DNA of 64,000 bases from assembly GCF_019097595.1 (NCBI RefSeq), contig NC_080710.1:10718780-10782779 (forward strand). Direction: 5' to 3'. Positions 10,601-63,966 of the stretch are shown here, one piece after another. The notes beneath the pieces were generated by a model, which was not told where the DNA came from, did not search any database, and was given only the letters and a program-made list of their open reading frames with translations. The position numbers and the translations under genes are program-made. Within the stretch, counting starts at the first letter, position 1. Each line of letters opens with the position of its first letter. The DNA is from Hemibagrus wyckioides. Its lineage: Eukaryota > Chordata > Actinopteri > Siluriformes > Bagridae.

Positions 10601-13600
10601 CTTTGACCTCATGCACCACATATATAGAGCTATGTCACTTACCACTCTGGTAGATATGGATACAGCGATCCTTTCCAGTAAATAATATAAGGAAATATGC
10701 TATAAGAAATACACTATATTGCCAAAAGTATTCGCTCACCTGCCTTGACTCGCATATGAACTTAAGTGACATCCCATTCCTAATCCATAGGGTTCAATAT
10801 GACGTCGGTCCACCCTTTGCAGCTATAACAGCTTCAACTCTTCTGGGAAGGCTGTCCACAAGGTTTAGGAGTGTGTTTATGGGAATTTTTGACCATTCTT
10901 CCAGAAGCGCATTTGTGAGGTCACACACTGATGTTGGACGAGAAGGCCTGGCTCTCAGTCTCTGCTCTAATTCATCCCAAAGGTGTTCTATCGGGTTGAG
11001 GTCAGGACTCTGTGCAGGCCAGTCAAGTTCATCCACACCAGACTCTGTCATCCATGTCTTTATGGACCTTGCTTTGTGCACTGGTGCACAGTCATGTTGG
11101 AAGAGGAAGGGGCCAGCTCCAAACTGTTCCCACAAAGTTGGGAGCATGGAATTGTCCAAAATGTCTTGGTATGCTGAAGCATTCAGAGTTCCTTTCACTG
11201 GAACTAAGGGGCCAAGCCCAGGTCCTGAAAAACAACCCCACACCATAATCCCCCCTCCACCGAACTTTACACTTGGCACAATGCAGTCAGACAAGTACCG
11301 TTCTCCTGGCAACCGCCAAACCCAGACTCGTCCATCAGATTGCCAGATGGAGAAGCGCGATTCGTCACTCCAGAGAACGTGTCTCCACTGCTCTAGAGTC
11401 CAGTGGCGGCGTGCTTTACACCACTGCATCCGACGCTTTGCATTGCACTTGGTGATGTATGGCTTGGATGCAGCTGCTCGGCCATGGAAACCCATTCCAT
11501 GAAGCTCTCTGCGCACTGTTCTTGAGCTAATCTGAAGGCCACATGAAGTTTGGAGGTCTGTAGCGATTGACTCTGCAGAAAGTTGGCGACCTCTTCGCAC
11601 TATGCGCCTCAGCATCCGCTGACCCCGCTCCGTCAGTTTACGTGGCCTACCACTTCGTGGCTGAGTTGCTGTCATTCCCAAACACTTCCACGTTCTTATA
11701 ATACAGCTGACAGTTGACTGTGGAATATTTAGGAGCGAGGAAATTTCACGACTGGATTTGTTGCACAGGTGGCATCCTATCACAGTTCCACGCTGGAATT
11801 CACTGAGCTCCTGAGAGCGACCCATTCTTTCACAAATGTTTGTAAAAACAGTCTGCATGCCTAGGTGCTTGATTTTATACACCTGTGGCCATGGAAGTGA
11901 TTGGAACACCTGATTCTGATTATTTGGATGGGTGAGCGAATAATTTTGGCAATATAGTGTATATCTCTACATTCAAACTGCATTTGTTTCAGACTGTTAG
12001 AGCTTTCGGTGCCAATGTACTACAATAGCTCCCTGAACCAGACTGTAGCACCTTTAAGTGTGTGCAGTTATCTTTGCTTCAGTGAACCAAAGCAATGAAG
12101 AAATAGTGGCTTTTGGGTAATCATGCAGTTTATGACATAAATATTTTACTATGCATAAATCAACATTTATACAGTTATATTTATTTTCTAATGCCACATT
12201 ATCATAACTATAAAAGAAAAAAAAGAGCAAACAACCTAGTGTGATCTATGATTAGTACATTTTTTAAGATCACTGAAAAGCACAGCCCTGATCAAGCATG
12301 CACAAAATACAGTGTTTTTGCATTATTTATTCTGCTTGTGCCCTTTTATTAGAAATAGCAAAATAAATAAATAAATAAATAAATAATCTAACAAAATTTT
12401 GACTCATGATATGCTTAAATAGTGATTAAGATTAAATGATTTAGTTAGGACCTAGTTCCTTTCACTGGGTTGTTTATGTTGCTGGCATGGTGTCATGGTT
12501 AGTCATTATCAGACTGGAACACATAGCTCTGATTAGCAACAATACTGCAGTTCTGCTGAACTGTAATTAAATTGTAGTTAAGGATTTATTGCATATTGCT
12601 ATTATAAGTAAATGCAAATGTAAAGTGCTTTTAATATTAGACACTGGGATATAATGATCTGAACAGTTTTGCAAGACACAGGACTATATATTATTGACCT
12701 TGGTGATGTATCATAAGTCATTGATGTAAATGAAAATATTCACTGCCTACTGTAAGATTCAAATTGTGTGAGGAAATAAGTACACAAAAAAGAAAGTAAA
12801 TTTGTGATATTAAAAAGTAAAAATTGTAAATGAAATTAAATATTATTAGGTGGATATTTTCATCTGTAGTATAGATTAGTTTCTTGATATAGGAAAGCAT
12901 TGAAAATTATTTTGCTTGTTAAGTCTGAGTATAATCACATTAGATACAATATGACAAAAATCCTGTCAGTTGTTTCCATGGGATGTTTATTTAAAGAGAA
13001 TTTATTTTACTTCAGTTTGCTGTAGTAATTTGTAAATTTGTAAATGACTTTCATTGTTTTGCTAATGTAACAATATGAAAACAGATCTGAAAATTGTGAG
13101 CAGTTAACACATACAGATATAGATGTTGGCACTGCATTACACATCGAATGCTGATACATAAATGAGATGAAATGCACAAGTTTAAGTTGAACCAGCCACA
13201 TAAACAAAATGCTGACTGATAGCTTAATGAATGTATTTGAATCCATTAGTCCCTCTTTGTGTTCTAGGAATTGCACTATGCAGACGTCCGTCATCTTCGG
13301 AATAATCAAGGGCAGCCAGGAACATCAGCCACAGGAACAGCTCCAACACCATCTTATGTGGCTCGGAATAATATGGTAAAAAGTTCTATTTTGTTTGGTT
13401 AAAGGCCCAAAACACTTTTCATCACAGCTCATCCCCAAATAAAATGGGGACAGTCACTGTTTGAAGTGATACACAATACCAGAATTTCATTTTTTTTCTT
13501 TTTTCACAATCTCTCAAGGGTCTGATTTACCAGTGCCTAGCCTCAGAATCAAACAGTGGACTATGTTCACTACATAAGATAAAAATAAAATTGGAGGAAG

Positions 13601-18365: not shown

Positions 18366-20851
18366 ATGCAGCTGGATGTCTGTATAAATTTGTTACTGAC
18401 AATTACAGGTAAGCTTGCTCTGTCCTGTGCCTTTACATGGTTGCTCCTATATTACAATACATGTTGGTGGTGTTTTTCTTTTTTTTTGTGAATGTATTGA
18501 GACAGCCCAGGTCATTTAAATGAATGGTAACTTACTTCTATTTGTCTGTATTAAAGTTTTATTTCATAATTAAAACGAATAGTTTCATAGCATTATTATA
18601 TACTGTAGTGAAAATATCAAGTACCAGTACATAGTTTTATGCCTCAAAGTGACAGTAATGGTGTAATCTAAAACTGTTTGATCGCTTATTTGTAGAACTT
18701 CAATCAGTTTATATATAACCTTTTAAAAGCTGTCAAGTTGGTGTCTTTGCTCACAACTTGACAGCTTTTACCTAAGGACTTTTATAATGTTTTGCCAAGT
18801 AAGCAGTAACCATGCCTACATTTTAAACAATACATTTCATTAATGTATACAGTAACTTGTATTGTTGTTGGTGTTCTTGTAAGTATATCCAATTCAATCT
18901 TTAAGTCAGAAAAACTAAAATTGTAAAAGAAATCCATGTGTTTTATTTCAGGGCTTGTGCAGGTGGTTACTGCAGGTGAGTTGATCTGTTTGTGTCTTCC
19001 ATTCCTAAATACTTGTGTGTGTCTACCTTCTTATCCGTCTGTGGTTATCTTTCTGTTCTGTGAAATAAAATAGCAGCACTTTATGTTTTATAGAATAAAA
19101 CAATAAATAATAAACTATATAAACATTTAAATAAATCCACACATATTATCATATTTACCATATAAAGACATGTTTCAGAAATAATAGGTGGAGCTGAGTC
19201 CATAATATTCATTTAATAGGTTCTGAGTCTAAAAATATTTTTTTCATTTTCTTAGGTACCCCACATGGGGTAACGATCTCAGGTCCTACTGAGGTGGTAG
19301 CTGGAGTGAGTACCATCTATGAGTGTTCTGCATTCTGCAGTCGTACCTGTTATTATACCTGGAGTGTGAAAGAACAGTCATTTGCTGGAAGCAGACTTAC
19401 CCTGACTGAAAATGGTGTAGACAATTTCATTTCACTAACATGCACAGTGACAGACGAAGACCATAAGCACTTTGTCAGTGAGATCATATTGGTCACAGTG
19501 ATAAGTAAGTTCATCCTGCTGTCCAGATCAATCTAATTTCATGAGTTTTGATTCATTTCAGATAAATAACAGTTGACCAACATATTTCATACACAAGTGA
19601 CATCATTAATATAGTGATTGTCTTTTGAACTTTTACAGATCCCATTTCTGTGAAGCCATCGACTAATCAGTCAGTACTTAACCAGCAGCCTAAAGTGGGG
19701 CGGTCATTTCATTTAACATGTAATGGAGCCTCCCTACCAGTCACTATAACCTGGCTTAAAGATGGTGCACCTCTTACATTAGACTCCAAGATGAGCCTAT
19801 CCCCTGATAATGTGACTCTGTCTTTTAGCCTTCTGAAAGAGTCAGATAGTGGCCAATACCAGTGCAAGGTCCTTAATGGAAGTGCCAGTGTTATAAGCAA
19901 GGCCTACTGGATTAATCGTAAGTAAGCCTTATTTATCTTTTATGTCAAATATTTCCTTATTGTTCCCATAAATTCGAGAGAACCCTGTTTGTCCTGTCAT
20001 CTAAGATATCAGATAAATCACATAATCAGATGAACATACCTAACCTTTAGAGAATTATGGCTGAGAAGGTCAAAAAAATATGACCTAATGTTAATCCTGA
20101 TCTTCTCCTGCAGTTGGATATGTGATCATAAACCTGACTGGGCCAAACTATGCGGAAGTAGGCATACAAAGCGAGTACACCTGTGAGGCACGGTGCGGCA
20201 TGGATTGCACAGTGCAGTGGGCTTTGCATGCAGGCTTTCCAAGAGGAAGATTCATTGCTGAAGGACCAAGGATTCTCTGGACCCCTTCTGACATCGGACA
20301 AACGCAGGTCTTCACTTGCATCACTCTGAACCCGGGTGCAGGCAATATTGGGCAGGTGTCCAAAACTGTAACTGTTGTAGGTGAGTTTGTGTAACAGAAC
20401 GCTGGGGCCACCTGGTGGTTAAGAGCAGGTACATTATTCCACACTTTACACTACTGAAAAACCTTTGGCAGAGAAATCAGTAAGAAAATGATCATTAACA
20501 TTAATATGAAAAATAAATAAACAAGCAAGCAAATACACAAACAAACTGCTATCTAATGGGATGATAAAGAACATCTTAAAGCTGTACAATAAGAAAGTGT
20601 TGCATACATATTTAAACCCTTTTATCAAGCATGTTGCTCGATATGTGTTAGGTTCATTAAGATTTAGATGGATTTTTAAAATTTGTATAAAGAATTGGCA
20701 AGGTTTTAATTTTGTGATTAGTAAACAGTGTGATTTGCTCTTTGCAGAAGCACAGCCACGTCCCAAGCCCAGTAACGCTGTATTCGCCAAACCGAGTGTA
20801 GCTGTGGTGAGCAGTGCAACTCTGCTGATGCTGGTTTCTGCTTGTGTCTGA
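18366..20851 (+). CDS. CEACAM-like Ig protein, probably GPI-anchored, cysteine-rich
   Basis: Six coding exons join in frame: 18366-18408, 18952-18975, 19256-19504, 19639-19917, 20114-20380, 20748-20851 (321 residues). Order: signal peptide split over exon 1 and a 24-base exon 2, then three Ig domains (about 23-105, 106-198, 199-287). The last exon has a Pro-rich linker and a hydrophobic end (VSSATLLMLVSACV) with no cytoplasmic tail, as in GPI-anchored proteins. The first and third Ig domains share an extra-cysteine pattern, CxxxCxxxC, before the B/C-strand Trp. The middle one is an ordinary C2 domain (DSGQYQC). There is no N-type CEACAM domain. All internal exon joins are phase 1. Likely an extracellular adhesion or decoy molecule; partner unknown. 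Exact family placement is less sure than for its two neighbours. Confidence 0.78.
18724..18770. repeat. Perfect hairpin in intron 1
   Basis: Two perfect 17-base inverted arms (18724-18740 and 18754-18770, arm TAAAAGCTGTCAAGTTG) around a 13-base loop, within intron 1 of the second CEACAM-like gene. Confidence 0.9.
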
Positions 20852-27371: not shown

Positions 27372-30300
27372 ATGGAGTCTAAATTTTTCTGTTGCTTCAC
27401 CTTGATCATCACAAGCTACATAACAGGTATTTCTAGCATTAATATTCTAATATGTTTCAGTTCTTTTTCTAGCCATTATGTATTATTTTCAAAATGTTTG
27501 TTGATTATATATTGGGGTTATGGGGTAATGCATCTTCAAACCCATTTTTTTCTAGGCAAAATTTAAAAAATGAACTTATCAAATTTACTTGATATCTCTT
27601 ATACTTAATCCTTTGATAAATAAGACTAAAGATGTTCATGTAAAATGTTAGGGTTTTTTGTATTATAAGTTTTTTTTAAAGTAATTTATCTTTCACTTAG
27701 TAGTTTTGACATCATTTTGTGCTGGTACAAATATCATATAGAATAGAAGAACATGGGTTTCTCATGTGCATAAAGTTTTTTTTTTTGTGGTATATAGGTG
27801 ACATTAAACTACAGTGTAAACTACAGTTTAATAAGGTCACCTATACACCACAAAAAAAGTAAGTGGCCATTCTTGTACAGGCCTTCTTTCCCTATCTTGT
27901 TTTATCAATAGCAGTTCTTCATCAAGTCTAAGAATTATTTTTAGCTTATTACAGGCTCTAGGCAATAAATGTCCATCATGTAGGATACTTCTGTGCTGTT
28001 TCTTAGTCCTGACAACATAATAACCAGTGAAGATAATTACAAGCCATGAATTAGAACAAAAAAAAAGCATCACTCCATTCATCAAGATCAAAAATTTTCT
28101 TTTGCGATGTTTTTCTAGGCTTTTATTGCATCTAATTTCAGATTCAGATTGACTCAACCAAACTAAAACGTTAAACTTTTCCCCCGGATAAAGTCATTTG
28201 TCGAGTTGGCAGTGTGATTATAGGATCATTATTGTGCTGCGTGATGAAGTTCCTCTCAATTAATGTGTGTACATTTCTCTGTAAATTGTCAGACTGAATG
28301 TTTCTGTAGACTTCTGAATTCATTCTGCTACCATCAGGAGTTACATCATCAATAAAGATTAGTGAGAAAGATTAGTTCCAGATGCTGTAAACCGAAGCCA
28401 CCACCACCAGGTTTCACAGATGTGCATGTATGTTTGGGATCATGAGCAGATCCTTACTTTCTCCACATCTTTCTGTTACTTTGGTAGAAGGTTAATCTTG
28501 GTTCTCCAAATTTTGTGGCTCGTCTCTGTGTTTCTTTAAGATTTCCAACCTTGCCTTCTGATTCTTACTCTTGATGAATGGTTTACATCTTGTTGTATGG
28601 CCTCTATATTTCTGCTCTCAAAGTCTTCTTCAAATAGTGGATTCTGTTACCTTCATGCCTACCTGGTGGAAGTTGCTTCTGATTTCACTTACTGTTGTTT
28701 TTTTCATCACAGCTCTTCCAGTGTTTCTGTTATCAGGTGTTTTGTTTTCCTTTACCAACCTGCTTGCTGTCCGTTGCTCAGTACACCAGTGGTTCCAAGT
28801 TGTTGTATTTGCATTACCCATTATTTGCGTAATGCCTCTGATTGCTTTTCCTTTTTTTCTCAGCTTCAAAATGCTTTTCTCCTATAGACAGCTCTTCATG
28901 ATGGCTTACCCTTTTTAACAACAACTGTAGACTTTACAGTTGAAACCAAAGGCTGAAACCTAAAGTAAAGATTCAGAGCTATTAATTGTTTCATTGTTTA
29001 AAGTCCATTTGTCACATGGGGAGGTCTGATAAAAACGAATCTGCTTTGTGCTTTGTTCAGTCTATTTAAAAAATTATTTTGTTTTATCATTTTTTATGGT
29101 GTGTTAACTACCAGTTACCAAGTGCAATCATTATCATTTAATATTCACTTAAAGCTAGAGTTTACAGGATTTTTTGTTAATTTAAAATATATGCTAACAT
29201 TTTTAAGTCAAAAAGAAAAACACTCTCCAATATAATGTTCCTGAGCTGCTATGATTGACAAATAGTAGCCCAGTAACCCAGTAATTCAGTAATCCAGGAA
29301 GGGTTGACTCAGAATTTTCAACCAGATTTATTAGGAAATTTCTATGCATATGTCTTATGCCAGCTCTACTAGTAAAATATCATAATCATTCCCCATGTTC
29401 AGGCATGAAAGGATTCCAACTAGACTGTGATGGGCAGAAGCCGCAGCTTATCAGGAAAAAGAAAGAGAAAATGTAATGGTAGTCAGGTTTCCATTCATGT
29501 TTTCACTGTTGTAAAGTGAAAATGCATTTTTTTAAAAATTTTAAAAAAAATTTTAAAGTCTGTTATTATGCTATGAGAGGAAAAAAGCCTAGTTACTATC
29601 CTACATTAAAAATCTTCTATAGCAAGTAGCTTGTGGTAGTATTTTTCTACCAGGTGTGAAAACATCATTGCAAACCAGGGAAAGCAACATTGCTATTGTT
29701 CTAACAAATAATATACCTAAATATGTCCTCTTTCAGGTGTTACCTCTCTGACTTTGACTTCATCTGCGAATCCTCAGGCTGTTGGAGGAAATGTCACTCT
29801 TACTCTAAATCCTCTGATGAACATCACTATTGGCACTTGGTCCTTTAATGGGAACTTCATGTTGATCTGGTTCCCAAATCAACTTAGTGTGAATGAGAAT
29901 TACAAAGGGCGAATATCTTTTAACTTGTCCACAAATCAGATCACTCTGTATTCAGTACAAGTGAGTGATTCCGGACTGTATAAACTGCAAGGCATGGAGC
30001 CAAATTTAAATGTGGAACTTACACAGTCTGTCCAGGGTGAGTTTCCAAACACGAAGTTGAACTATGCTAGGACTCATTGGCGATATTTTGTTAATAAATA
30101 AATACACATATATTACAAGCAACGCACACAACAAAAGATTATGTTGTAAGATCATGTCAAAAAAAAACCTTTCAACCCGTTTCAACATGACATTGTTGCT
30201 CAACTAAAGTTTATGACAATGTAATGATTTCCATAGGCTAATAAATCAAATTTATCTCAGTGATTAATCATTAGGTTAGTTGTAAAAAAAAAAAAGTAAC

Positions 30301-33300
30301 ATGATTGTATTGGACACTTGATGGAACAAACCTGTCGAATGTGGGAATAGCTAATTGCAGGGTTAGGGTAAGGTTCTGTTGCAATAGCTGTTTTTATAGG
30401 AAATCCAATATTACCCTTAGTCACTTCAACTTGGTGAGTTCTGTGTCCCCGTTTCTGTCTTAATTATCACTAACAGACATATCAGAGACCTAAACATGAA
30501 TAAATGTATAGCAGGGAGGATGGAAAAATCTTTTTCATATATTTTCAATTTTAGATATTTTAACATGCAATTGATGAACAAATTAAATTTCGATTCAATG
30601 TTATTTATATTGTGCTTTTAACAGTAAGCATTGTCATAATGCAATTTATAGCAATATATACTTTCACAATATATACTATAAATTTAAATTTTAAAAGGAT
30701 CCCTAATGAGCAAACCAGAGGTCATAATGGCAAGGGAAACTCTCTGTGATGGCATGAAGAAGAAATCTTGAGAAGAACCATACTCAAAAAGAAACCCATG
30801 CTGGGTGACACTGGATAGTATGATTATAAATAAATTCCCTTCCATAATCTTGTACTATATGGTCGAAAAGTGCAATTGCATAACCACGAAATTCATTCTA
30901 GTTATAATATGAACTCTATCTTATTGAAGTTATCCACTGATGAAGTGCAAAACTGCTCATGGCAAATAGCTGTCCAAAGCCATCTTGTAATTAATGTACA
31001 AATTTATGACCATAGGAGAAAAAAAAAAGATTATCCATACTGAAATATTCTCTAAATGTTTTAAAACCATATGCTTTTAGTCATCTTTTATTGTTCAGTG
31101 TTCTCTGTCAATGTTCAGCATAGGATGTATGCTAAACTAAAAATGTCTTTTTTTTCTTACCATCAGTGCCAATCACAAATGTGTCTCTGACAGTAAGTAA
31201 GACAAATCTGGTGGAGTTTAATGGCAGTGTCGTGTTCACCTGCACAGGCAGTGGCACACTGTTAGCGATCACATGGTATAATGATAGCTCTGTGGTCACC
31301 GCAGCCAATAATCAAGTATATATTAATGGAAGTAGTCTCATTATTAGCAATGTAACAAGATACGACAGTGGGCCTTTCCGCTGTTCTGTGGCGAATGGCA
31401 TCAGTAATGGAACAAGCAGGTCAATTTCCCTTGATGTCAGCTGTGAGTATAGCGTTATACATATCTTCATATACATAATATATTAAATATGTATTCAAGA
31501 AAAATTGTGCTCATATGTGACTTTTATTTCTTCTTAACTATCTAGATGGTCCCTTGTCCACTAGGATTTCTGGCCCAGCCATAGCAGAAGTAGGTTCTAA
31601 TGTGACACTAAATTGCTCTGCTTCCTCTCAACCTGCCAGTCAATACAGCTGGTTTTTCCAAGGTTCTAAAGTGGCAGAGGGCTCTGTGTATCAGGGTTAC
31701 TCTCTTTCACTAAACAGCAGTGGAGAATACACTTGCCTAGCCCACAATAATATCACAGGAGGAAACAGCAGTGCTACATGGAACTTAACTGTCATTGGTA
31801 GGTCTTGACCTCTAGGTTCCTGACCTTTGCTATTCTACCTATAAGTTGTCACATCAACAGAAAACAGATACTCTTCTGTTACATATTTGTGTGCACTTAG
31901 ATATTTTAAATTATTTCTATGCTCTTTCTAATTATAGTGTTATCAACTGTGTTGTTTTGTCTTCAGTGGGTATTTCCTCAGTGGTGGTGACTCCCAGTAC
32001 TCTCAGCCCTCTGGCCTCTAAGGATATGCAGCTCTTCTGTAATGTGACTGGCTCCTTTAACACCATCCAGTGGCTAAAAGACAACCAGCCTTTAAATACT
32101 GCAGCCACAAAATCCATGTACATAAATGGCACCACTGTAGATTTCCAGCCTCTGCAGATCACTGACGATGGATCATATACGTGTGTTGCCACAAATGCTT
32201 TTCGACCACATGTTAGCCTGCCGTTTATTCTAATAGTTAATTGTAAGTGACTTGTGCTTTTATCACGGTGAATCTTATGTTGTCATATTATCATGTTAAA
32301 GTATGAAGAAAGACATTTCTGGGCACTCACACGATTTCATCCTTATTAATATGCATGCGGTGTATGTCGCAATCTGGCAAAACAAGTCAAATGATGAATT
32401 CTGAATTCCGGCCAGCAATATACTTTGAAATTCATACTTTAAGAAAAGATAACTATGCTGTATTTTAGCAACACTAGATGGAATGTGTTCCTTTAGGTAA
32501 CTTTATAGCATTGCTTTGGCGGCCTGCAAAGATTACATCAGGTACAGAGGCAGTTTAACAAACCCAGTGGTAAATGCAGTTTGAACTGATCTAAAAATCT
32601 TCCTAGCTGAGTGTAATTTGCTTTATGATTTTATTATTTCTAATGATTTAATTATATGTTATAGTAGAATGGATATGAACCTAATCGACTGTTTGTAATC
32701 AGATAGAGGATACCCAAGTTTAAATGCCACAAGTGCCTTTTATTTCAGGTATTTAAAATCAGATGTGGATAAAGCTGGCACTTGTATTAAATACCTTATA
32801 AAATCATGAGTCATTTCCCCTTGTAAAGACATATACAATATACATAGAATACTAGAAAAATGTTCAGATTTTCAATTACATAAAGCCATGGCAAGGTTTA
32901 TTGAACAACAAATTTTGCCTGACTGCAAGTTTTTTGTGTTAAACAGATGGGCCAGTGGATGTGACTATAACAGCTGACATCAAGGCTGCCACTATCTTAA
33001 TGTGCAATGCAAAGTCTCAGCCACCAAGTGTTTACCACTGGCTGTTCAACAACACTGTCATTAAAGAGGATGCTATTTTAATTTTACCTCTAATGCCTCC
33101 TCTGGGTTATAATTACACCTGTGTGGCCATAAACCCTCTGACCAACGACACACTGTCTACTTCCTATGTTATTTCAGGTGAGCAGAGCATTTCCACAATC
33201 AAATAGCTGATCTTTAGGGTTAGGAGAAAGTCTATATGAGTTTATTAATAAATATTATATTATATTTTACTGTTATAATATATTGGTATCAAATCTGAAA

Positions 33301-34524: not shown

Positions 34525-34825
34525 TTATATCGGGGTACTAATGTGTTTGGTCTTTTTCTTGTTTTTCAAAAGGTAATTCTTGCAATCTTTGTACTTGTTA
34601 ATGCCTCCCTTAATGCACTGGGCCTTTTCTTCCTGATTGAGTCCATCTAAGAAAGGATAAAGAGCATCGGTATTAATAACAGACACCAACAACAAAGAGT
34701 AAAAGGGAAAGTTTGAAAAATGGAAATACACAAGTGCCATCACAAAGCCCCATTGTTTAAAGGGTGTGGTTTTTACTTGTCATTTTGCATGAACTTACTG
34801 TTTCTTTGTGCGAGTGTGTGTGTGC

Positions 34826-34897
<72 letters not shown>

Positions 34898-36329
34898 GGC
34901 CATTTTGCATGGACACCCTTTCTGAGTTTTACTTTTACCTAAAGACACAAGGAAATGAACTCAGTTTGTGCTGAATTACTGCATTAGGAAAATATATGTT
35001 ATAAGTATATGTTAATTTTTGCCAAACATTTTGCCACTTTGTTTGAGTACTTCCTAATTATTTGAAGCAGCACTTAAATGTATAAATGTTGTTCTTGCTG
35101 TAGTAAAAACATACTGAAAAAGAATTTCAACTAGTGCTATCTCAGTTTATATTGACACAGGGAAATATAATAATTCACTGTAATTATTTAATTCATATGG
35201 AATGAGCATGTTTTAAGGGGTGCTCTTCAAAAAGGAAAAGCCAAACAAGACAATTGGGGCACTAGTCCACTATTTTGTATTATAAAGAAGACTTTATTAT
35301 AATTAGAAGAGTACAACTCCTCAGAGTTAGTTTTTGCGTGCACTATATCACACACTCCTGGTCCCTTTTGACATTTTTTTCCGCATTGAAACTGTAACAG
35401 TACTCACCTGGGCAGAGACAATTTCCAGTTCGTGGCTTGGTGGTTTTGTTTGGACTTTTAGCATCAGCAGGTCTCACTGCATTTCCTGAACTGGCTGCCA
35501 CTACATTACGCACAAGAAATATGTCCAGTAAACCCTTTATTACTTGCTACTACTTTTGGGAAAACATTTTAAATATAAATCCTTTTTTTAGTATTTTATT
35601 GAGTCAGAAAAAGGCATTACCTAGCAAAAAGGTTTGTCGACTACACTTGCTCGCTGCCCACTTTATTATGAATACCTGTACACCTGCACATTTATGCTTT
35701 TGTACAGTCAGTCAATTATTTGGCAGCAGCTTAGTGCATAAAATTGTGCAAATTCAAGTCAAGAGCTACAGTTAATGTTCAAATCAAGCAACTCTGTGAT
35801 CTTTGTGACTTAAACTATGGGCTGGTTTGAGTATTTCAGATACTCAAACAGTATGCACAACAGTATCTAGAGTTTACAGAGAGTGGTGTGGGGCTGTTGA
35901 TTGCATAAAGAACAGATGTACGTGTTCCTATTAAAGTGAGTGAAGAGTGCATATGTGTATTATAAAGGGTATATTTAAAATAAAAGTTTCAACTTTTGGT
36001 TATTATCAGAAATTTTAGCTCAACACAGCCACAGACCACTAATGAAATGACAAAATACAACTAACTTACAGCTTGAGTCTTTTTCTTGGGAGTCAATAAC
36101 CTCTGTGAGGACAAAAAAGCAAAGAGCGCAATGTGAGCAGATGAGCAAACATCTTTCATGAAAATTTCATTATAAAGTCCCATAAGTTTGTTATTCTCAG
36201 CGAGGTATTTTATAATATGTAATTAATATCATATAGTTATAATGTATAAGAAACAAGTACAGTACCCTGGCAAAGAGCATTGAAGTCCACCATGACAGTA
36301 ACAGCCAACAGAAACACCAAAAATTTCAT
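34525..36329 (-). CDS. cxcl17: CXCL17-like secreted chemokine-type peptide
   Basis: Four minus-strand exons join in frame: 36266-36329, 36070-36102 (33 bases), 35408-35500, 34525-34646, giving 103 residues with all joins phase 1. A hydrophobic signal peptide (MKFLVFLLAVTVMVDFNALC) is followed by a Ser/Lys/Pro-rich linker and a CLC motif. Then come QC and DC, a very basic stretch with NKKKTKH, and the end STPI. Mature features, CxC plus two later cysteines, high positive charge, about 80 residues, four exons and a C-terminal x-Pro-x, fit CXCL17 (human ends Leu-Pro-Leu). The place beside CEACAM genes, with cnfn and pafah1b3 near, matches human 19q13.2. Direct sequence identity to mammals is very low, so the call rests on synteny, exon plan and the tail. 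Exon 3 could start six bases later (35494). By family it attracts myeloid or lymphoid cells at mucosa. Confidence 0.68.
34749..34816 (+). repeat. Block shared (inverted) with 21949-22016
   Basis: Located in intron 3 of the cxcl17-like gene, about 100 bases upstream of exon 4. Runs straight into a GT/GA microsatellite at 34817-34891. Confidence 0.85.
34817..34891. repeat. (GT)n-(GA)n compound microsatellite
   Basis: GT units to about 34846, then GA units with one GT-containing interruption to 34891. Confidence 0.95.
35650..35955. mobile_element. Internally deleted Tc1-like remnant (family B)
   Basis: Begins CACTTTATTATGAATACCTG and ends CCTATTAAAGTGAGTGAAGA, both ends of family B, with only about 300 bases between. 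It lies between exons 2 and 3 of the cxcl17-like gene. Confidence 0.6.
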
Positions 36330-39214: not shown

Positions 39215-42200
39215 TCAGGGTGCGTGCGTTTCTAGCAGGGTTTTAATTTGTGTGTATATTGGCTGGCACACTTTCTGATAGGCCTGTGCTGTTAGGTGGA
39301 GATAATCGTATAGGTCCTGATGGGAGATGGAGCCATCTGATTGCACAAATCCAGGATCCACGTCCAAAAAGGAGGCATATGAGAGAGATTCCAGCTCAGC
39401 CTGCACCAGAGTGTTCACTCGTGCGTTACGCTTGCGTAGTGGGTTCAGACTCTTCCCTCTCGGCAAAACACCCTAATGACAGACAAAAAGAAAAGGCATA
39501 TCCATCCAGTTTTCAAATAACAAAATACCAACTTACTAATGACCTTTGTACCATGCAGAGCAGTGGTTAATGTTGGCAGGGTTCTATCCTGAGCTCATGT
39601 TTCTGTGTGTGGAGTTTCTTCTCCATACTTCCATCTCCAGTTTCCCTCCAACTACCAAAAACATTGCTACATTGCCCCAGGTGTGAATTTGTGTGTGGTG
39701 AATGTGTGTGTGCGCGTTTGTGTAATATGAATCAGTTCTATTTACTGAAAACAGTGAAGATTATAAATGACACAACCGACTGCACCAGTCAACAACAAAA
39801 TGTGCTAGAACATGCTTTAGCATGTAAATTAAATGTATGCCAAATAAAATCAATAGAAACAGGAAAAAAACCCTCAATTTAAAGTATTGTAAAAACAACA
39901 GCTTAAATATATTTTGTTCTTCTGAAAAAGCATTGATGAATGGACCTTTTTCTATTATATATAACAAAAAAACAATGTGATGTAGATATTAAGAGAATGA
40001 ACTGACCAGTACAAGAACGTGAGTTTGAGGAAGGTGCTTGTTGATCACGTTAACAATGGCCATGATGCCGCCACAGATCTGCTCGGGGGTGTGGCCATGA
40101 TTATTAGTGCCCACCCACAACACTACCACCTACATGTAATGGGGGAAAAAAACATATTTAATTGATATCTATGAAAACATATGTATCTAGCACATTAAGG
40201 CACGGTGAATATAAATCTGATATATAGTACATTAATGTTTAACAAGAACAGGTTTTATATAATAAATATAATATAAATATTCAATTAGATTATGACTCAG
40301 CCAAAATATCTGGCTACACTAAGCAACCTCAGCAAAGTGGAAGCTGTACCTTGGGGCAGATATGGTCCAGTTCTCCATTACTGAGTCTCCATAGGACATG
40401 CTGTGTCGCATCACCACCAATCCCAAAATTCAGAGAATGGAGTGGGGAAAACAGCTTTCTCCAAACCTGTCAACAGCACACACATTCATTAATAAATGCA
40501 TTTTAAAATGGAAGTTATAAAAAAAGCTACACTAACCGACTATGTACATGTTATTTTTCTGAATATTTGGTCCAGAAAAGTAGCCTTGCAAACACTACAA
40601 GGGTTTTAACCTTATTGCTGGTGTATGGTCTTTAGTTAAATTGAATTAAAACATGCACAGCAGTCAGCACCCTAAAATGGCTAAAATGACAACTATACTT
40701 TCCCTTTTCCTGTCCTGTCTGTATTTTCCATTTGGAAGTCCCCCATTTTGAGCCAAACTGAGTCATTAAAAACAGACTGACCCAGCAGATGGGTGCTCTT
40801 TGACCTATTCATCTCCACATTTCTGATAAGCTGCTTTGAGTAGCCAACTAGACTACTGTGATGGTTTCTCTGTTCATCTTCCTGTATTAATTAATCACTA
40901 TTATTATAAAATCCATAACCTCAAACACTATTGTTTCTTCACACCACAGTAACCAGTCCATTAAACAATGAAATACAAGTGGGAGGTTAATCATCATAAG
41001 GAAACCTGTCCATATTTCCAACAGTCATCTGAATGTGCAGATGCAACATCAAAAAAAAGATATATTTTTATGTTCAAAGTGGCCAGGTAGAAGCAGTGAA
41101 TTACAAAACCATTAGTGAATTAAACCCATAGTACACTTATAGTGAGGGAAAAAATGATTTGATCCCCTGCTGATTTTGTATGTTTGCCCACTGACAAAGA
41201 AATGATCAGTCTGTAATTTTAATGGTAGGTTTATCTGAACAATGAGAGACAGAATAACAACAAAAAAAATCCAGAAAAACACATTTCAAAAAAAAGTTAT
41301 ACATTGATTTGCATTTTATTGAGTGAAATAAGTATTTGACCCCTTTGCAAAACATGACTTAGTACTTGGTGGCAAACCCTTGTTGGCAATCACAGACGTC
41401 AGACATTCCTTGTAGTTGGCCACCAGGTTTGCACACATCTCACATCTCAAGGAATTTGGGCCCACACCTCTTTGCAGATCCTCTCCAAGTCATTAAGGTT
41501 TTGTGGCTGACCCTTCAGCTCCCTCCACAGATTTTCTATGGGATTAAGGTCTGGAGACTTTCTAGGCCACTACAGGACCTTAATGTGCTTCTTTTTGAAC
41601 CACTCCTTTGTTGCCTTGGCCGTGTGTTTTGGGTCATTGTCAGGCTGGAATATCCATCTACGACCCATTTTCAATGCCCTGGCTGAGGGAAGGAGGTTCT
41701 CACTCAAGATTTAACGGTACATGGCCCCGTCCATCGTCCCTTTGATGCGGTGCGGTTGTCCTGTCACCTGGGGATGGTGTACTTGGGGTCATAGGCAGCA
41801 TTCCTCCTCCAAAGACGGCGAGTTGAGTTGATGCCAAAGAGCTGGATTTTGGTCTCATTTGACCACAACACTTTCACCCAGTTCTCCTCTGAATCATTCA
41901 GATGTTCACTGGCAAACTTCAGATGAGCCTGTACATGTGCTTTCTTTAGCAGGGGGACCTTGCGGGCGCTACTGGATTTCAGTCTTTCACGGCGTAGTGT
42001 GTTACCAATTGTTTTCTTGGTGACTATGGTCCCAGCTGCCTTGAGATCACTGACAAAATCCTCCAGTGTAATTCTGGGTTGATTCCTCGCCGTTCTCATG
42101 ATCATTGAAACTCCATGAGGTGAGATCTTGCATGGAGCCCCAGACCGAGGAAGATTGACAGTCATTTTGTGTTTCTTCCATTTGGGAATAATCGCACCAA

Positions 42201-44448
42201 CTGTTGTCACCTTCTCACCAAGCTGCTTGGCGATGGTCTGGTAGCTCATTCCAGCCTTGTGTAGGTCTACAATCTTGTCCCTGACATCCATGGACAGCTC
42301 TTTGGTCTTGATCATGATGGAGAGTTTGGAATCTAATTGATTGCTTCCTTCTGTGGACAGGTGTCTTTCATACAGTTAACAAGCTGAGATTAAGAGCACT
42401 CCCCGAGAGTGCTCCTACTGTTATCTCAGCTCCTTACCTGTATAAAAGACACCTGGGAGCCAGAAATCTTTCTGATTGATAGGGGATCAAATACTTATTT
42501 CACTCATTAAAATGCAAATCAATGTAGAACTTTTCTGAAATGTGTTTTTCTGGATTTTTTTTTGTTGTTATTCTGTCTCTCACTGTTCAGATAAACCTAC
42601 CATTAAAATTACAGACTGATCATTTCTTTGTCAGTGGGCAAACGTACAAAATCAGCAGGGGATCAAATAATTTTTTCCCTCACTGTATGTAGTTCTCAGC
42701 TTTATCATAGCTGACCTCAGGTTAGAAACTACATAACTAAAAATTTACATTATTTCTAAACTTAGATTAAAAATATACATAATGCTGTTAAGCACAAATG
42801 ACACCAATCTAACATTTAAAATATAATAATAATAAAAAAAAAATTCATAGTCTAATGACAAGAAAAGTACATGCAGAGATTTCTCAAAGGGTTAACTAAG
42901 CAAAATACATGACTGTAATTAATAATAGTGTAAAATTTTTAATGTGTTTGATTCATAGCACTCCTCCAGTTTACATGTACATTGTTTTTGTGTATGTTCT
43001 AATTGTATTTGAACCAAATTCTGCCGAGTACAACAGCTTTGTTTTCTTTATTTCATTTCTGCATTATTGTCCCTGGACTGCTGCTGATTCAGTTCAGTGG
43101 ATCATTTTACATGCATGTTTAAGCTTGTTGAACATTGTATTGAATGTCCATTTTTTTCTTCTACACCCTATTGCACACAATCTTTGATTGGTCTGGCTTG
43201 AGCCCCATATTTGAGTTGCTTACTGAATTGATGCTTTGTTGGTAATCAACAACTCCGCCTAACTTCAACCCTTAATTTGAAACTGGAGACACGGACATCT
43301 TAATTCACCTTTCATTATGCTTAGATTAATGCAATTCTATTTCCATTGGCATGATCGGTCAAACCCTAAATAAGCTGTCAGAGTCATCACAATAATCCCT
43401 TTGCACAAACTATGCCCACACTTCAACAAACACTCTGGATTCCAGCCACTGCTTAAGTAAAATAGCTCTGTAAAATAGCTTGGTATGGTCACAGCTGCAA
43501 TTACCTACACAGGTTCCCCATCCAGCTCTTTAAGTCAGGCTTTTCGGTGAAAACAGCACTATATATAGTATAAAGGTATATGTAATTATCGAATTAAAGA
43601 CATATTATGTCTATTATATCTGCAAAATAAATAATGCAGATGATGTCAAATGGTTTTGCAACTTATTACGGCATGAAAACACTCAGCATACACTGAAAAT
43701 TTACTCAGTGACCATAGGATTAATTTTGGCAAAATATTTTTGGTGATAAATATAAATATATATATACACACACAGCATACATGTACTGTTTACTAGCCCA
43801 AAAGTGAAAACATCAAGGTGTTAAAAATCCCCTGCTGTACCAGGGCACCAAATAAATGCAACCCAGCACAAATATATTCTAATATATTCTGGTACTAGTT
43901 GGTAATGGCAATGGTACTATTCATGGCATGATAACCCCATAACCCAGTAACATATTTTTCAGTCTACACATCATGAAAAAGAACCATTATAGTATAACCC
44001 ACAACAATATAATTTCATATTAGTTTTCTTATTATAGTATGCCATTATATCAGCATCACACCACTATGTACAAGTCAGTCATGAATAAGCATATGTGCGT
44101 GTTTACGTGATTACAATTGTCTGTATAACGGAATCAAAAACATAAATCATACCTCAAACTCATGCATTAGTTGGACAAGAGAATCTCCGACGAAGAGCAC
44201 GTCTGGTTCCTTCCCTTTACTGTCAGATACAAAACGATTGTGCTGTACAGAGAAACAGAAGTCCATCATTTTTAAATGCAAAGTATTATTAATACAAAAC
44301 AGAAAGTGTACAATTCACTGAATATGTATTCTTTTATGTATGTGGAATGGATTTTGAGCAGACTTACCAGTGACATCCATCGTCCATCACCGTGTATGTC
44401 CTCACAGGGGGTGGGGGTAGCTGCAGGATTGCTGTCTCCGCTGCTCAT
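39215..44448 (-). CDS. pafah1b3: Platelet-activating factor acetylhydrolase 1B, catalytic subunit 3
   Basis: Five minus-strand coding exons, all phase 0: 44368-44448, 44153-44242, 40350-40466, 40007-40129, 39215-39472 (222 residues, close to the mammalian 231). A cytosolic GDSL-type serine esterase that removes the acetyl group of platelet-activating factor, working as a dimer with PAFAH1B2 and binding LIS1. Visible motifs: [17 protein letters not shown] block with nucleophile Ser48, [24 protein letters not shown], and DLYDYLHL with Asp193 and His196 completing the triad. All are one position off the mammalian numbering. Start is [13 protein letters not shown] 5' UTR exon probably ends at 45484. 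The neighbouring head-to-head prr19 supports PAFAH1B3 over PAFAH1B2. Intron 2 carries a Tc1 element. Confidence 0.95.
41140..42685 (-). mobile_element. Tc1-like transposon with long inverted repeats, inactivated
   Basis: A 1546-bp element flanked by TA (41138-41139 and 42686-42687). Its inverted repeats are about 205 bp each (41140-41345 and 42480-42685), starting (T/C)AGTGAGGGAAAAAA, with few differences. This long-repeat plan is typical of one group of fish Tc1 elements. It lies in intron 2 of pafah1b3. Confidence 0.92.
41366..42315 (-). pseudogene. Broken Tc1-like transposase
   Basis: The minus strand starts at 42315 with [20 protein letters not shown] and stays open for 183 residues through paired-like helix-turn-helix regions ([11 protein letters not shown]) and the first catalytic block ([11 protein letters not shown], where the usual Asp is Asn). 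It then shifts and stops at 41764. The C-terminal half survives only as fragments in other frames. Confidence 0.85.
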
Positions 44449-47520: not shown

Positions 47521-47816
47521 AGGATGAAACATGCACGCTGCGTACATATAAATTAACGTTAATGAGATGTTTTCCGTAAAGCTTCTTTCCATTAAGGATT
47601 TGAGACAATGTCCAGTTGAAATGAACTGGATTAATGTTGTACCGATGGTGCATATGCAAAAGTGTACTATGGGCAAAAATGTGTTTGTTTATGGGGTGCA
47701 TTATTATACCACTAGTCATCTAGTATCTAACTAATTGTTTTTTCTATATCGATTAAATGATCTCTTAGTCCAGCTAATTTCCTTTTATTTGTGTGCATTT
47801 AACTAGCATACTTGCT

Positions 47817-50800
47817 ATGAGGCATCACAGCAGAAGAGCATTGTCTGACAAACAAAATGTCTTAAACATGTACAACAGCAATAGGAAGGCCAAGTTGAAA
47901 CCCTGCAACACAGGTATTTCTGCTCCTTGCCACAGTTCAGTTTGTAGTAACAATAAAACTGAAGAGCATTACAGTGTGCCTCAAAAGACGAAACGTCTCA
48001 AAACCATTAAACAACGAAACCAAATTCGAAGGCAGAACAGCAACAGGTTTAACCCGCACCATCAACACTGTGAAAGAGGAAGCAAGAACAAAAGACCATG
48101 TAGTGAATGTCAGGATAGCCATTGCAGTTGCTTCCTGAACATTTCTGTAAAAGAAAAGCCAGTTGCTAAGCCATTTCCTTCACAGAAGCCAAGCATTATC
48201 ACTGAAGGTCGTCTTACATCTATCAGAGGCCTTTTCAGCCATGAGGTGAGGTCTGTAGACATCGAAAGACTAGTACAGGAAAAGAAACATCACAAGCACA
48301 CAGAAAAGCAGGAAGGACATACTACTGCAAGTAATTCCCCTACTCCTCCCTGTGTAATTCCCCATTCAGCATCCCCTGCTGTGATTGCTGAAACAAGTGA
48401 GGAAGGCATTTCTGCATGTGCAAATAAAGACCAGAAATCAAAGAAATTAAAGAAAACAGATCATTTGCAGACTAATTTAGAAGAGACAGACGCTGTGATT
48501 TTGCACAGCGGAGATGAAAATCACAGTTCTACACAGATTCCAAAAACTACAGATAATACTGCTAGATCTGCAAGCCCATCAGATCAGAAAGGGGTGCAAG
48601 AAGCTGCCAGTTTGTCTTCGTCAGAAAGTGAATCTGTACGTAAGTCCTTTCCAACATCCTTTAAAGTCACCCCGAATGACTATAAAGCCATTCTGAAAAA
48701 GAAAAACACACACATCCAAAAGCAAACTGCTGCCATGGATCTGCAACCTGATTTTGTAAATTCTGAAAGACTTGGCATCCCTGCAGGGTTAGAAGTCTTA
48801 AATTTTCACGCGCCACAGTTTGATCCTAGTCCTACAATCTTCCCGTTTTCTTCACCCACAATGGATGGAAAAATAAATGCACTGAGAGATAAAAGTCAAC
48901 ACAGTAAACCTGGTTTTTCATCCAAAGATGACACAGTGAGTAGGCTCACAGCCCGGCTGTGTCACGATCTAGGTTCTTTTCCACTACAGCGCCACTGCCC
49001 TCTGCTGACAGACTGCAGGAAAGTGCTTCTGCACCACCTACAGGAACGACATGGCTCTCAGCTTCACCACAACCTGCACAGGCTTCACTCACACCTCAGT
49101 GTAGAGGGGCCACATTCCCCACACACTGCAGAGCAAGTATGGCCTAGAAAAGTGCAAAAATATTTAGACAATAAACAAAAGCATTTCGGCTATATGAGGA
49201 AACATGAAGATGATCAACAGAGTGAGATAATGGAATTTCAGACAGGTATGTCACCTTATCAGTAAGTGGCCATATTACATATAGTAATTTATATTTGGGT
49301 GAAAAAAAAGGATTTACATATTTTCTGAACAGTGTTTGTTATTGTCTGTGCTAGATAATGGCTCACAAAATGAGGGCTTTTGTGAGAATGTGGATAGAAG
49401 AGCAGCCATTAAGAGGCAGAGGAAGCAAACTTGGGGGATACTCTCACCTCAGGATTTTGTCACAAAACTCCAACGGCCATGCCCAGATACGGTATGCCTT
49501 TGATGGTACAGAGTTGCACAACACATACAGATGCAAAAAACATGCTCTGTTACTACCAACACATGAAAATGTACTGACTGAAACGTATGGAAACGAACAC
49601 AATATTGCATTACTTAGCCATGTCCTTTCACTTAAGGCACGTATGTGCTGATCTATTCATGAAATATGCATGTAAACCTGTACCTATATTTGTAAGGCTA
49701 CATTATATTCTTACATTTCTTTAAAACTAACTTTTGGGGTAATGGAAAAATCCATTTTTGGCCAAACTATTCATTCAGTAGTGCACAAAGCCCACTATAA
49801 AAATTATTGTGATTATTATGAGTAGGATGGCCAAAATATAATCAAAAATGAAACTTTTAGGGTTAAGAAATTTGATTCTGATTCTGATAGCATTATAAGA
49901 ATAATGAGGGGCAAACTGTTAGACACACACACTCGCACACACTTCAATGCAGCTGCATTCATGGTTTCATGATGAAGTGTTTCATGTCCATGATGATGTC
50001 ATGGGTTTCCACTGAATTCCAAAGATATTATATTAAACTTTTCTATACAATATACTACGTCTGTCCTTTTGTGTAATTTGTACTATGATTGAACAATCTG
50101 TGCATAGTATGTTAAAAAAATGTATGATACAGCAAACAATGCACCTCATTACACCTGTGACTGTACATATACACATTTCGAGTACAGCTAAAGGGTCTAA
50201 AGTAAAATTGATATAAAATGTAACACAGTTTTGCTATGGGGAAGTGGTGGTTCATTAGATTTGTTTTCTCTGTCTGTAGTTAAGCCAATGGAATATAACA
50301 GCACAGTCTCAAGAGTCTCTTACAGCAAAGCCGTACTCCAAATCCAAGACATTGTCCCTGCACCAGGCCTTCACTAGATCTCAGATTCCAACACTGTGGT
50401 CTTGCACAGATCGGATTGTGGACCCCTTTTTCCTGGAGCCACAAAAGCAAGTAAAATTAAGCAGTGGTGAAAACAGGAGGAGACACAGCACTGCACTACC
50501 ACTGCTGGAACAGTGGAGAAATGACCCTGATTTAAATTTTCTGTTCCAGGACGAGAATTCAAAGAGAACCCATACGTCATTAGGTTCTCTAACAGAGCTG
50601 AGGAATCATTCTCCTGACCCCGACACTGAGAGTGTCAGTGAGAGGCTGTTCTTTAGTGCTTCCTCTACTGTTTCAGCGTTCTTTCCTCCTGAAGGGTTTT
50701 GTTATGAACCTTACTATCGGTTTCCACATCCATCCAACTCCTTTTACAGGTCCGAAAAATCTACTACGAGTCTTTACGCTCAGCCAGATGTTGAAAAGCA

Positions 50801-58360: not shown

Positions 58361-60093
58361 TCAGCCCCTCATCTTTTGTTCCCGAGCCATCTGGCAGAGA
58401 CCACATAATGGGCAGCAGGCCATAACCAACCAGTCATCACAGATGGACCCCTGCGTAAACATGTACAACCAATCATATACTGCATACACTTGTATACTGC
58501 CTGTACTGTTGTATTACTCTGTATTAGATACCATACAAACTTGATGCATGAGTATTTATGTCATGTTAGGTACATTTTAGGACATTTAATATGCATAGGA
58601 ATAGTGTATTCAATATGTGTGTACAAATATGCAATATGCACTTTCAAATATTCTGTAAACTCAACTATTTTAATGTGAAATCAGTTTTTAGCATTTGTTA
58701 AAAACGAAAAACGAAAAAAATCATAACCTTTTGGAAACATTATTGGTGGTTTGTTTGTTTATTTGTTTATTTACTTATTTATTTCAATTACTTGCACATA
58801 ATGAAATATAAAATGATCATTAACAATACACTTGGAAAAAGGACAAATTAAAAATTGCACAATTGTTTGGTTTTCTGTCCCATAACATTTTTTTTAGTTT
58901 GTTTGTTTTTATTTGTTTTTTAAGTGAGCACATCTGTTTATTACAGATAAACTTACATTGATCCGGTATTTGTCACGAATGCTGGTTCGTAACGCAATCA
59001 TGGCTCCAGGCAGAAAGGGTAGACAGCAGGTATCACCATGGTCCTGTGCCACCTTACAGCCAAGGATGCAGGGGATAAATGCACCACAGAGGCCTGTGGA
59101 GAGAGAGACACACATTTCATCCATTTATGTAGAGAAGGACTAGGGTTCAACTTGAAATGCTGGTCTCCTTACATTTCAGATTATATACATTATTACAGTA
59201 ATAATGGGCAATGAACTGTAAATATTGATCACTTCCTATGAAAAACAATTCTCAGCAGGAAAGAAGCATACTGAACAAACATTATGTTCCACTGTGTACT
59301 TTCTGAGCTTCATTTATTAAATCTGAATTTGCTTGAGGCTCCTTGTTTAAAAGTAAACTCCAAAATAAAAAAAAGCAAAAAATTATTGGCTACATCTGTT
59401 CTAACTTAAAAGAAGGTAGAATTAAAACCTAATGTTATTAGAAGATTTTAAAAACCAATCACACATTTATCAGGACAGTCTCCACAGTTCCATAAAACAG
59501 GATCTGAGTTCAGAGTAACACATCAGCCACAATTATACTAACCTCATTGTTGGCCAACATTACCACTATTACTTACTACTACCACAAATATTAATAATTA
59601 TTAATAATTCATCTTCAATCAGCTGTTTATCCAAGACAAGGGTGTGATGTATCTAAAATCTCTCACAGGAACAGAGTGAATGGGATCCCAGTAAAATGCA
59701 GGGCATCATGTGCGCACACACACACACACACACACACAGGAACAATTTAGAATAGTAGCCCACCAATCATATTTTTAGCGAGAAAACCCACACAGGCATA
59801 GCATCCTAAGCTGAAAATCAAACCAGGGACCTACACCTACGGCAGCTACAACTGCACCACCATGCTTCCCACAAATAATGCTAATAACTATTAGAAATAA
59901 ATATGACTGCACATAAAAAAGCCTCCCTCTTCCTCATTCACACATATACACAGACATAAACCCACTTACAGATGCCACAGTCATCACAGCAGTCACAGAG
60001 GTTGGAGCTCCAGTCAGAGGAACCAGTGGAGACAGAGTAACTGGTGACTGTCACCTGAGGCTGTGTGCTGACCACTTCAGTTTGATATGTCAT
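58361..60093 (-). CDS. cnfn: Cornifelin (PLAC8-family cysteine-rich protein)
   Basis: Three minus-strand coding exons join in frame: 59970-60093, 58957-59093, 58361-58450, giving 116 residues (human 112). The start MTYQTEVV lies two bases after an acceptor, so at least one 5' UTR exon is upstream, probably ending at 60334. The PLAC8 signature is complete: DWSSNLCDCCDDCGICLCG, CILGCKVAQDHGDTCCLPF, a basic RTSIRDKYRIN stretch, then GSICDDWLVMACCPLCGLCQ and the end REQKMRG. In mammals cornifelin is a component of the cornified envelope; in fish it is more generally an epithelial, membrane-associated Cys-rich protein. The two-residue-class spacing of cysteines matches the family throughout. Its presence near CEACAM and cxcl17-like genes agrees with human 19q13.2. 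Confidence 0.92.
59717..59740. repeat. (CA)n microsatellite
   Basis: About 12 CA units in intron 1 of the cnfn coding region side. Confidence 0.9.
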
Positions 60094-62708: not shown

Positions 62709-63345
62709 CATGTAGAACAGTTCAGTCCTGGGTGTTGAGCCTGATGGCTTGAGGAAAGAAACTGTTACACAGTCTGGTTGTGAGGGCCCGAATGCTCCGG
62801 TACCTCTTTCCAGATGGCAGAAGGGTAAAGAGTGTGTGTGAGGGGTGTGTGGGGTCAGCCACAATGCTGTTAGCTTTGCAGATGCAGTGTGCGGTGTAAA
62901 TGTCCGTGATAGAGGGGAGAGAGACTCCGATGATCTTTTCAGCTGTCCTCACTATCCGCTGAAGGGTCTTGCGATCCGAGACGGTGCATTTCCCAAACCA
63001 GGCGGTGATGCAGCTGCTCAGGATGCTCTCGATGGTCCCTCTGTAGAACACAGTCAGGATGGGGGAAGGGAGATGGGCTTTCCTCAGCCTCCTCAGGAAG
63101 TAGAGGCGCTGCTGGGCTTTCTTGGTGATGGAGCTGGTGTTGAGTGACCAGGTGAAGTTCTCCACCAGATGGACACCAAGGAATTTGGTGCTCTTGACGA
63201 TCTCCACCGAGGATCTGTCGATGAACAGCGGGGAATGGTCACTCTGTGCTCTCCTGAAGTCAACAACCATTTCTTTAGTCTTGTCGACATTCAGGGAGAG
63301 GTTGTTGGCTCTGCAGCAGGCTGTTAGATGTTGCACCTGAAAGAG
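62030..63345 (-). mobile_element. L2-like LINE, 5'-truncated
   Basis: Minus-strand non-LTR retrotransposon. The 3' end carries tandem GATTCAAGATCAAGATTCAA repeats at 62028-62050 and a 3' UTR with GT/GA microsatellites (62568-62710). The 5' end stops abruptly near 63345, as usual for target-primed insertion. It is the longer sister of 7802-8745. Confidence 0.9.
62722..63336 (-). pseudogene. LINE reverse transcriptase, C-terminal fragment
   Basis: A 204-residue open frame holding the end of an L2/CR1-type reverse transcriptase: [64 protein letters not shown] and [20 protein letters not shown]. The catalytic palm with its DD motif and the endonuclease lie beyond the truncation and are absent, so the product cannot retrotranspose. 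The initial Met is internal to the original protein. Confidence 0.88.
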
Positions 63346-63966
63346 TATGTGCTAATAAAAGTCTTACACACTTTTGACCTCTGAGTAATTCTGCATTTAA
63401 AGTACATCCGTTTTATATTAGTAAAGCAACAGTGCCACTCTGTGCTAAAGGAAGTCAGTACAGAAATGAAATCTTGAGATTAAGAATTTACATGGGCAGA
63501 GATTTGAAAACAGATTTTAAATCATTTTGAGCATTTAAAAATATACAACCATACAGTGATTGGGAAATATTTGCATACCAAGTATGAACTGATCAGACAT
63601 TTGTCATTTGCAAAGCAAATACAAATTAGAAAAAGTCAGTGCTATTACCTAACCATCTGAACACCAAATGGCAAAGCAGAGCTTGTGGTCAGACAGTAGT
63701 AAACGTGCAGCCTCGGGTTGAGCAATTCACTAAGCCATACTTTCGTCTGTGTCTTCAGCTTTTTCACTTCTCTTTCACACCAGTCCTCAGATGGCTCTCG
63801 CAATTCTGATGCCAATAGTCCTTGAAACGTGCTCCAACAGCTTCTTTTTTTTGTACGGTTTCAAATTGCAAGCAATTGTTTTCTCTTTCATCTGACTTTA
63901 TGACTTTACTACAGTGATACATCAACCATTCTTTTTTAATTTTAATTAGGCATTTATAAAGAAAAA
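63346..63966. other. Spacer at the right edge
   Basis: AT-rich; no exon or transposon recognised. Confidence 0.45.

Follow-up and report, generated by a model that had tools for sequence, protein, structure and literature searches.

Does the interval between a CEACAM-like immunoglobulin gene and pafah1b3 in a catfish genome encode the chemoattractant CXCL17, and does its predicted protein show the cysteine pattern published for CXCL17? As late as January 2024, CXCL17 was considered restricted to placental mammals (PMC10792014), and PMC4690017 describes the information available for fish as limited. The original prediction for this locus proposed a teleost ortholog; as to whether CXCL17 exists in teleosts it has been overtaken, given that fish CXCL17 was described and tested in zebrafish in January 2026 (PMC12905490). 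According to this report, zebrafish CXCL17 is the product of zgc:158701 (UniProt B0S594), located between pafah1b3 and ceacam1; it has 109 residues with cysteines at positions 47, 49, 60, 62, 80 and 91, ends in Leu-Pro-Ile, and acts as an agonist of zebrafish GPR25, nearly all activity being lost without the last three residues. The same source describes the CXCL17 C-terminus as Xaa-Pro-Yaa, where Xaa and Yaa are typically large aliphatic residues, reports homologs in several other ray-finned fish, and states that overall the zebrafish protein is not significantly similar to mammalian CXCL17.

The window, that is, the whole 64 kb stretch of DNA analysed here, contains in order a CEACAM-like Ig gene, the candidate gene, pafah1b3, prr19, TLR21 and a cnfn-like gene (Table 1). 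The three expected neighbours pafah1b3, cnfn and ceacam1 are thus represented, the last one by an Ig gene that is named by its position. When the two cnfn-like pieces were searched separately, the second matched PF04749 (E 2.4e-5) and the first gave no match. Among the best 120 of 756 protein matches, identity of the TLR21 frame is 82-83% with the proteins of Ictalurus and Tachysurus and 78% with those of Silurus and Clarias, which makes a siluriform catfish the most likely host. Ig-like exons occur on the plus strand in three groups (1678-4794, 19198-20394 and 29721-33206), which may form a small CEACAM-like gene cluster; Ig matches are clear at 3196-3507, 19629-19925, 31136-31486 and 31816-32250, and the other scanned frames gave weak matches or none. 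The minus strand also carries a long Tc1-like transposase frame with HTH and DDE domains, stop-free across the domains (10797-11966), a Tc1/Sleeping-Beauty-type transposase fragment inside the pafah1b3 region (41767-42375), and a frame matching Pfam ALKBH8_N (62725-63351, E 1.8e-22), which we take as putative retroelement sequence and not as a repair gene.

Table 1. Features of the candidate gene and of its neighbours in the window; a slash marks an exon-intron boundary.
Feature	Position	Strand	Remarks
CEACAM-like gene, Ig-domain exons	29721..33206	+	Pfam Ig matches; CEACAM name from position and Ig content; piece 32943-33206 outside the scan
Polyadenylation-like signal ATTAAA	34448..34453	-	71 nt downstream of the stop codon
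Last coding exon	34525..34646	-	Two more cysteines with a gap of 11; hairpin of two helices predicted, then a loose tail ending in Thr-Pro-Ile; stop TAA
Additional predicted exon, 42 nt, GKSKTQKGCPCKMA	34897..34938	-	Phase 1-1; second CXC (CPC)
Exon 3	35408..35500	-	Phase 1-1; first CXC (CLC) at exon end; weak acceptor, very strong donor CAG/GTGAGT
Exon 2, 33 nt, EVIDSQEKDSS	36070..36102	-	Symmetric, phase 1-1
Exon 1 coding part, signal sequence MKFLVFLLAVTVMVDFNALCQ	36266..36329	-	Ends in phase 1; weak donor AGG/GTACTG
TATA box TATAAA	36424..36429	-	100 nt upstream of the ATG
pafah1b3 exons (GDSL acetylhydrolase), approximate limits	39218..44448	-	PF13472, E 7.3e-13, five exon pieces joined with X
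prr19, large exon	47778..49265	+	PF15455, E 3.6e-7
TLR21, single open frame, 997 codons	51695-54688	-	Protein similarity
cnfn-like PLAC8 exons, approximate limits	58361..59079	-	PF04749, E 1.8e-10 for the two pieces linked by X

For the candidate gene, four coding exons had been proposed on the minus strand between 36329 and 34525. All of them are present and join in one frame through GT/AG introns, every join being in phase 1 as claimed, and their translation gives the predicted 103-residue, secreted-looking basic peptide, ending in HISTPI. The signal peptide, itself a prediction, is consistent with the hydrophobic start LVFLLAVTVMV, and the TATA box was found. The exon set was nevertheless incomplete: a fifth, predicted exon (34938-34897) had been overlooked, and the four mature cysteines of the 103-residue model (positions 60, 62, 74 and 85) become six once it is added. 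As to the individual sites, the exon 1 donor falls in the 80th percentile among all GT dinucleotides and the exon 3 acceptor in the 70th among all AG on the strand; these percentiles are rough. The frame is also kept if exon 3 uses an acceptor at 35485 or one at 35494, or if exon 2 extends to 36037. Across both strands of the whole window, exon 2 is the sole open phase 1-1 exon between 18 and 90 nt that reaches its site scores, a threshold that it meets by construction; it is possibly a cassette exon.

Since published CXCL17 has six mature cysteines and the four-exon model only four, the introns were scanned for an additional exon, defined as open, in phase 1 at both ends and containing C-x-C. 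Ten phase-compatible candidates were obtained, three of them with at least 8 pyrimidines in 15; one of these three is exon 3 itself, and the remaining two share a single acceptor, the longer one having a weaker donor. The shorter one, which lies in the third and last intron of the four-exon model, is bounded by the acceptor TTCCTTGTGTCTTTAG/G and the donor CCA/GTAAGT, in the 99th and 98th percentile, respectively, for the minus strand of the window. On neither strand does the window contain another open exon of 18-180 nt, in phase 1 at both ends, with scores as high; the exon itself again meets the threshold by construction. Among 2000 dinucleotide shuffles of the intron, 2 contained a phase-compatible open exon with both sites as good and none contained an equally good exon that also bears C-x-C; when each site was allowed to be 3 bits weaker, 3 shuffles had a C-x-C exon. 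With the additional exon the protein has 117 residues, or 106 without exon 2, and six mature cysteines in the order CXC-CXC-C-C, an order that is obtained only if this predicted exon is included. All introns remain in phase 1, and the number of coding exons is four if exon 2 is skipped and five if it is used.

A 96-nt repeat lies beside the additional exon: positions 34747-34842 are 95% identical to 22017-21922, in the opposite orientation and with an attached microsatellite. A long CT/AC microsatellite reaches approximately position 34890, and the exon ends next to it. We considered whether the exon could be part of the dispersed repeat and rejected this idea, given that the repeat stops at 34842 and the microsatellite at about 34890, which leaves the exon (34897-34938) outside.

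All three models (103, 106 and 117 residues) are shorter than 200 residues and have a strongly hydrophobic N-terminus, with a cleavage site after ALC judged by eye; the mature peptide is basic (pI about 9.6-9.9, charge +11 to +14). In the C-terminal Thr-Pro-Ile, proline and isoleucine fit the Xaa-Pro-Yaa pattern, whereas threonine is not a large aliphatic residue. Structure prediction of the last exon alone, from a single sequence (mean pLDDT 78.7, 56 for the last block, pTM 0.44), placed helices at residues 4-12 and 18-34, each with one cysteine, followed by a loose tail. Such a predicted helix hairpin would suit the C80-C91 disulfide predicted for zebrafish CXCL17, plus a free tail.

The cysteine gaps of the catfish protein are 2, 10, 2, 14 and 11, followed by 18 to the end, and those of zebrafish CXCL17 are 2, 11, 2, 18 and 11, followed by 18 to the end; the last 11 and 18 are therefore shared, in contrast to the 10 and 14 of catfish that stand against 11 and 18 in zebrafish. 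From the spacings given in the zebrafish paper (PMC12905490) we derived the pattern C-x10-C-x16-P-[ILVMF]-stop. It matched once in the six frames of the 64 kb, at the gene, where 0.05 matches per window were expected from 60 simulated windows; the fit of the gene had been noticed before the scan, so that the result is a measure of rarity and does not amount to a blind discovery. When the pattern was loosened (C-x6-14-C-x6-22-P-aliphatic-stop), no enrichment was seen in the window, with 4 matches versus 3.7 expected. For these two reasons, the level of the loosened pattern and the prior knowledge of the fit, only the exact spacing carries weight.

It had been anticipated that similarity searches would miss the gene, and this held for the Pfam, PDB-sequence and protein-collection searches that were run. 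A profile match to mammalian CXCL17, suggested as a check, was not obtained: the 103-, 117- and 106-residue models matched no Pfam family at E 10, including the CXCL17 family PF15211. No PDB sequence matched the 103-residue model, and in the protein collection neither this model nor that of 117 residues had a match, with one word-sharing candidate each. This collection contains many fish and catfish proteins, including the TLR21 of this same genome; given such richness and the lack of a match, annotation may be lacking at the locus, or related proteins may have diverged too far, or be too short, to surface in a shared-word search. A genome-wide search with PF15211 also gave no match and is uninformative, since 0 of 14 controls were detected. 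In the 790 Mb genome the DNA of the last exon matched the locus itself and nothing else, and the corrected protein had four matches with E no higher than 10, none of them outside this locus (the additional exon, at E 0.404, the last exon, and exons 1 and 3), while exon 2 gave no match alone; no second similar locus was found in the genome.

Taken together, the position of the gene, its phase-1 introns, the basic secreted-looking peptide, the CXC-CXC-C-C order of the corrected model and the zebrafish tail spacing with Pro-Ile support a teleost CXCL17, and judging from sequence we consider it highly probable that the gene is the catfish ortholog. The lack of a match to PF15211 does not prevent this assignment, because zebrafish CXCL17 is likewise reported to lack overall similarity to its mammalian counterparts (PMC12905490).

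Basic cysteine-rich secreted peptides are common, and the locus might encode an unrelated, lineage-specific cationic peptide, for instance an antimicrobial one, with a CXCL17-like cysteine order arising by chance. The unmatched Pfam model of CXCL17, the failure to find database relatives, and the loosened tail pattern at its expected level all speak in favour of such a peptide. This explanation is nevertheless improbable, for it requires that the interval, the CXC-CXC-C-C order, the Pro-Ile end and a spacing of the last cysteines identical to that in zebrafish CXCL17 all coincide; moreover, an antimicrobial family, a better match to which had been named as grounds for abandoning the CXCL17 identity, was likewise absent from the Pfam results at E 10. 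Even less probable, and by a clear step, is that the frames are open by chance, with no gene or a decayed one at the locus. The two weak splice sites (exon 1 donor and exon 3 acceptor) would agree with this, as would the fact that the protein collection lists the TLR21 of the genome and no protein for this locus. Against it stand five open, phase-compatible exons, with exon 2 and the additional exon unequalled at their site scores on both strands, and further the TATA box, the polyadenylation-like signal, the exact tail pattern and the gene position. Finally, a canonical CXC chemokine with an IL8-like fold, which the earlier CxC wording might suggest and with which the C-x-C motif and the basic character agree, is scarcely credible and was rejected on cysteine spacing, intron phases and Pfam: there is no IL8-family match at E 10, the gaps of 10, 14 and 11 between cysteine blocks are unlike the Cys7-34 and Cys9-50 of CXCL8 (as given in PMC10628517), the introns are all in phase 1 whereas phase 1 followed by phase 2 is described as typical of chemokine genes (PMC3346806), and the last exon is predicted to form two helices.

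If the gene is CXCL17, its function may be outlined by analogy with the zebrafish and human work. The protein would be secreted, its basic body would bind glycosaminoglycans and hold a gradient, and the free C-terminal tail HISTPI would enter the pocket of GPR25 on lymphocytes and draw these cells in. It would thus act as a chemoattractant without having the fold of a canonical CXC chemokine; for CXCL17 in general, such a fold has been argued against (PMC8320810, PMC10792014). Because both small exons (33 and 42 nt) are symmetric and the additional exon ends beside a microsatellite, exon skipping could yield two ligands, a six-cysteine form and a four-cysteine form without the second CXC, the latter equal to the model first proposed, with the receptor-binding tail in both; we regard this as doubtful. 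For human CXCL17 a four-cysteine form has been reported that arises through a cleavage removing the first CXC (PMC8320810); splicing in the catfish, if real, would be a different route to a four-cysteine ligand.

Fish CXCL17 is already known from zebrafish, and the gene is accordingly assigned as an ortholog in another species; the present contribution consists of the catfish member, its overlooked CPC exon and its divergent tail. PMC12905490 does not mention catfish in its main text; a catfish may be among the homologs in its supplementary table or figure. A catfish member with the complete cysteine order, in the interval known from zebrafish, would widen the picture of the CXCL17-GPR25 pair in fish and provide a test case beyond zebrafish, in which the Thr-Pro-Ile tail probes how strict the receptor-binding motif is. 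The locus also illustrates that tiny symmetric exons can hide the signature of a family, and that such genes may be overlooked or counted as four-cysteine peptides.

Among known systems, the zebrafish paralog CXCL17-like (si:dkey-112a7.5) is also a small secreted basic peptide with six cysteines and an X-Pro-aliphatic end (PMC12905490). According to the same report, its cysteine order is CXC-C-CXC-C and it lies on another chromosome beside ponzr genes and ugt5g1; the catfish gene, in contrast, has the order and position of CXCL17, and the paralog was rejected on the CXC-CXC-C-C order and the neighbours. Human CXCL17 (Q6UXB2, 119 residues) shares with the catfish gene the CXC-CXC-C-C order, the phase-1 introns, the basic character, the neighbourhood and an X-Pro-aliphatic end (PMC12905490, PMC3346806); four exons with intron phases 1, 1 and 1 are listed for it (PMC3346806, Table 1), and it has also been modelled with a C-terminal helix (PMC10628517). 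Its cysteines, at 50, 52, 75, 77, 103 and 110 (PMC10628517), are more widely spaced, with gaps of 23, 26 and 7 and 9 residues to the end, and the catfish protein differs further in not matching PF15211. The comparison with zebrafish CXCL17 uses published positions and spacings. The catfish gene differs from it in the Thr-Pro-Ile end in place of Leu-Pro-Ile, in the extra 33-nt exon, which gives five coding exons if used where the zebrafish gene is reported to have four, and in containing tyrosines, the zebrafish protein reportedly showing no absorbance at 280 nm (PMC12905490). Both have in common the pafah1b3-ceacam1 interval with cnfn nearby, the CXC-CXC-C-C order, the Pro-Ile end and a basic secreted peptide of about 110 residues.
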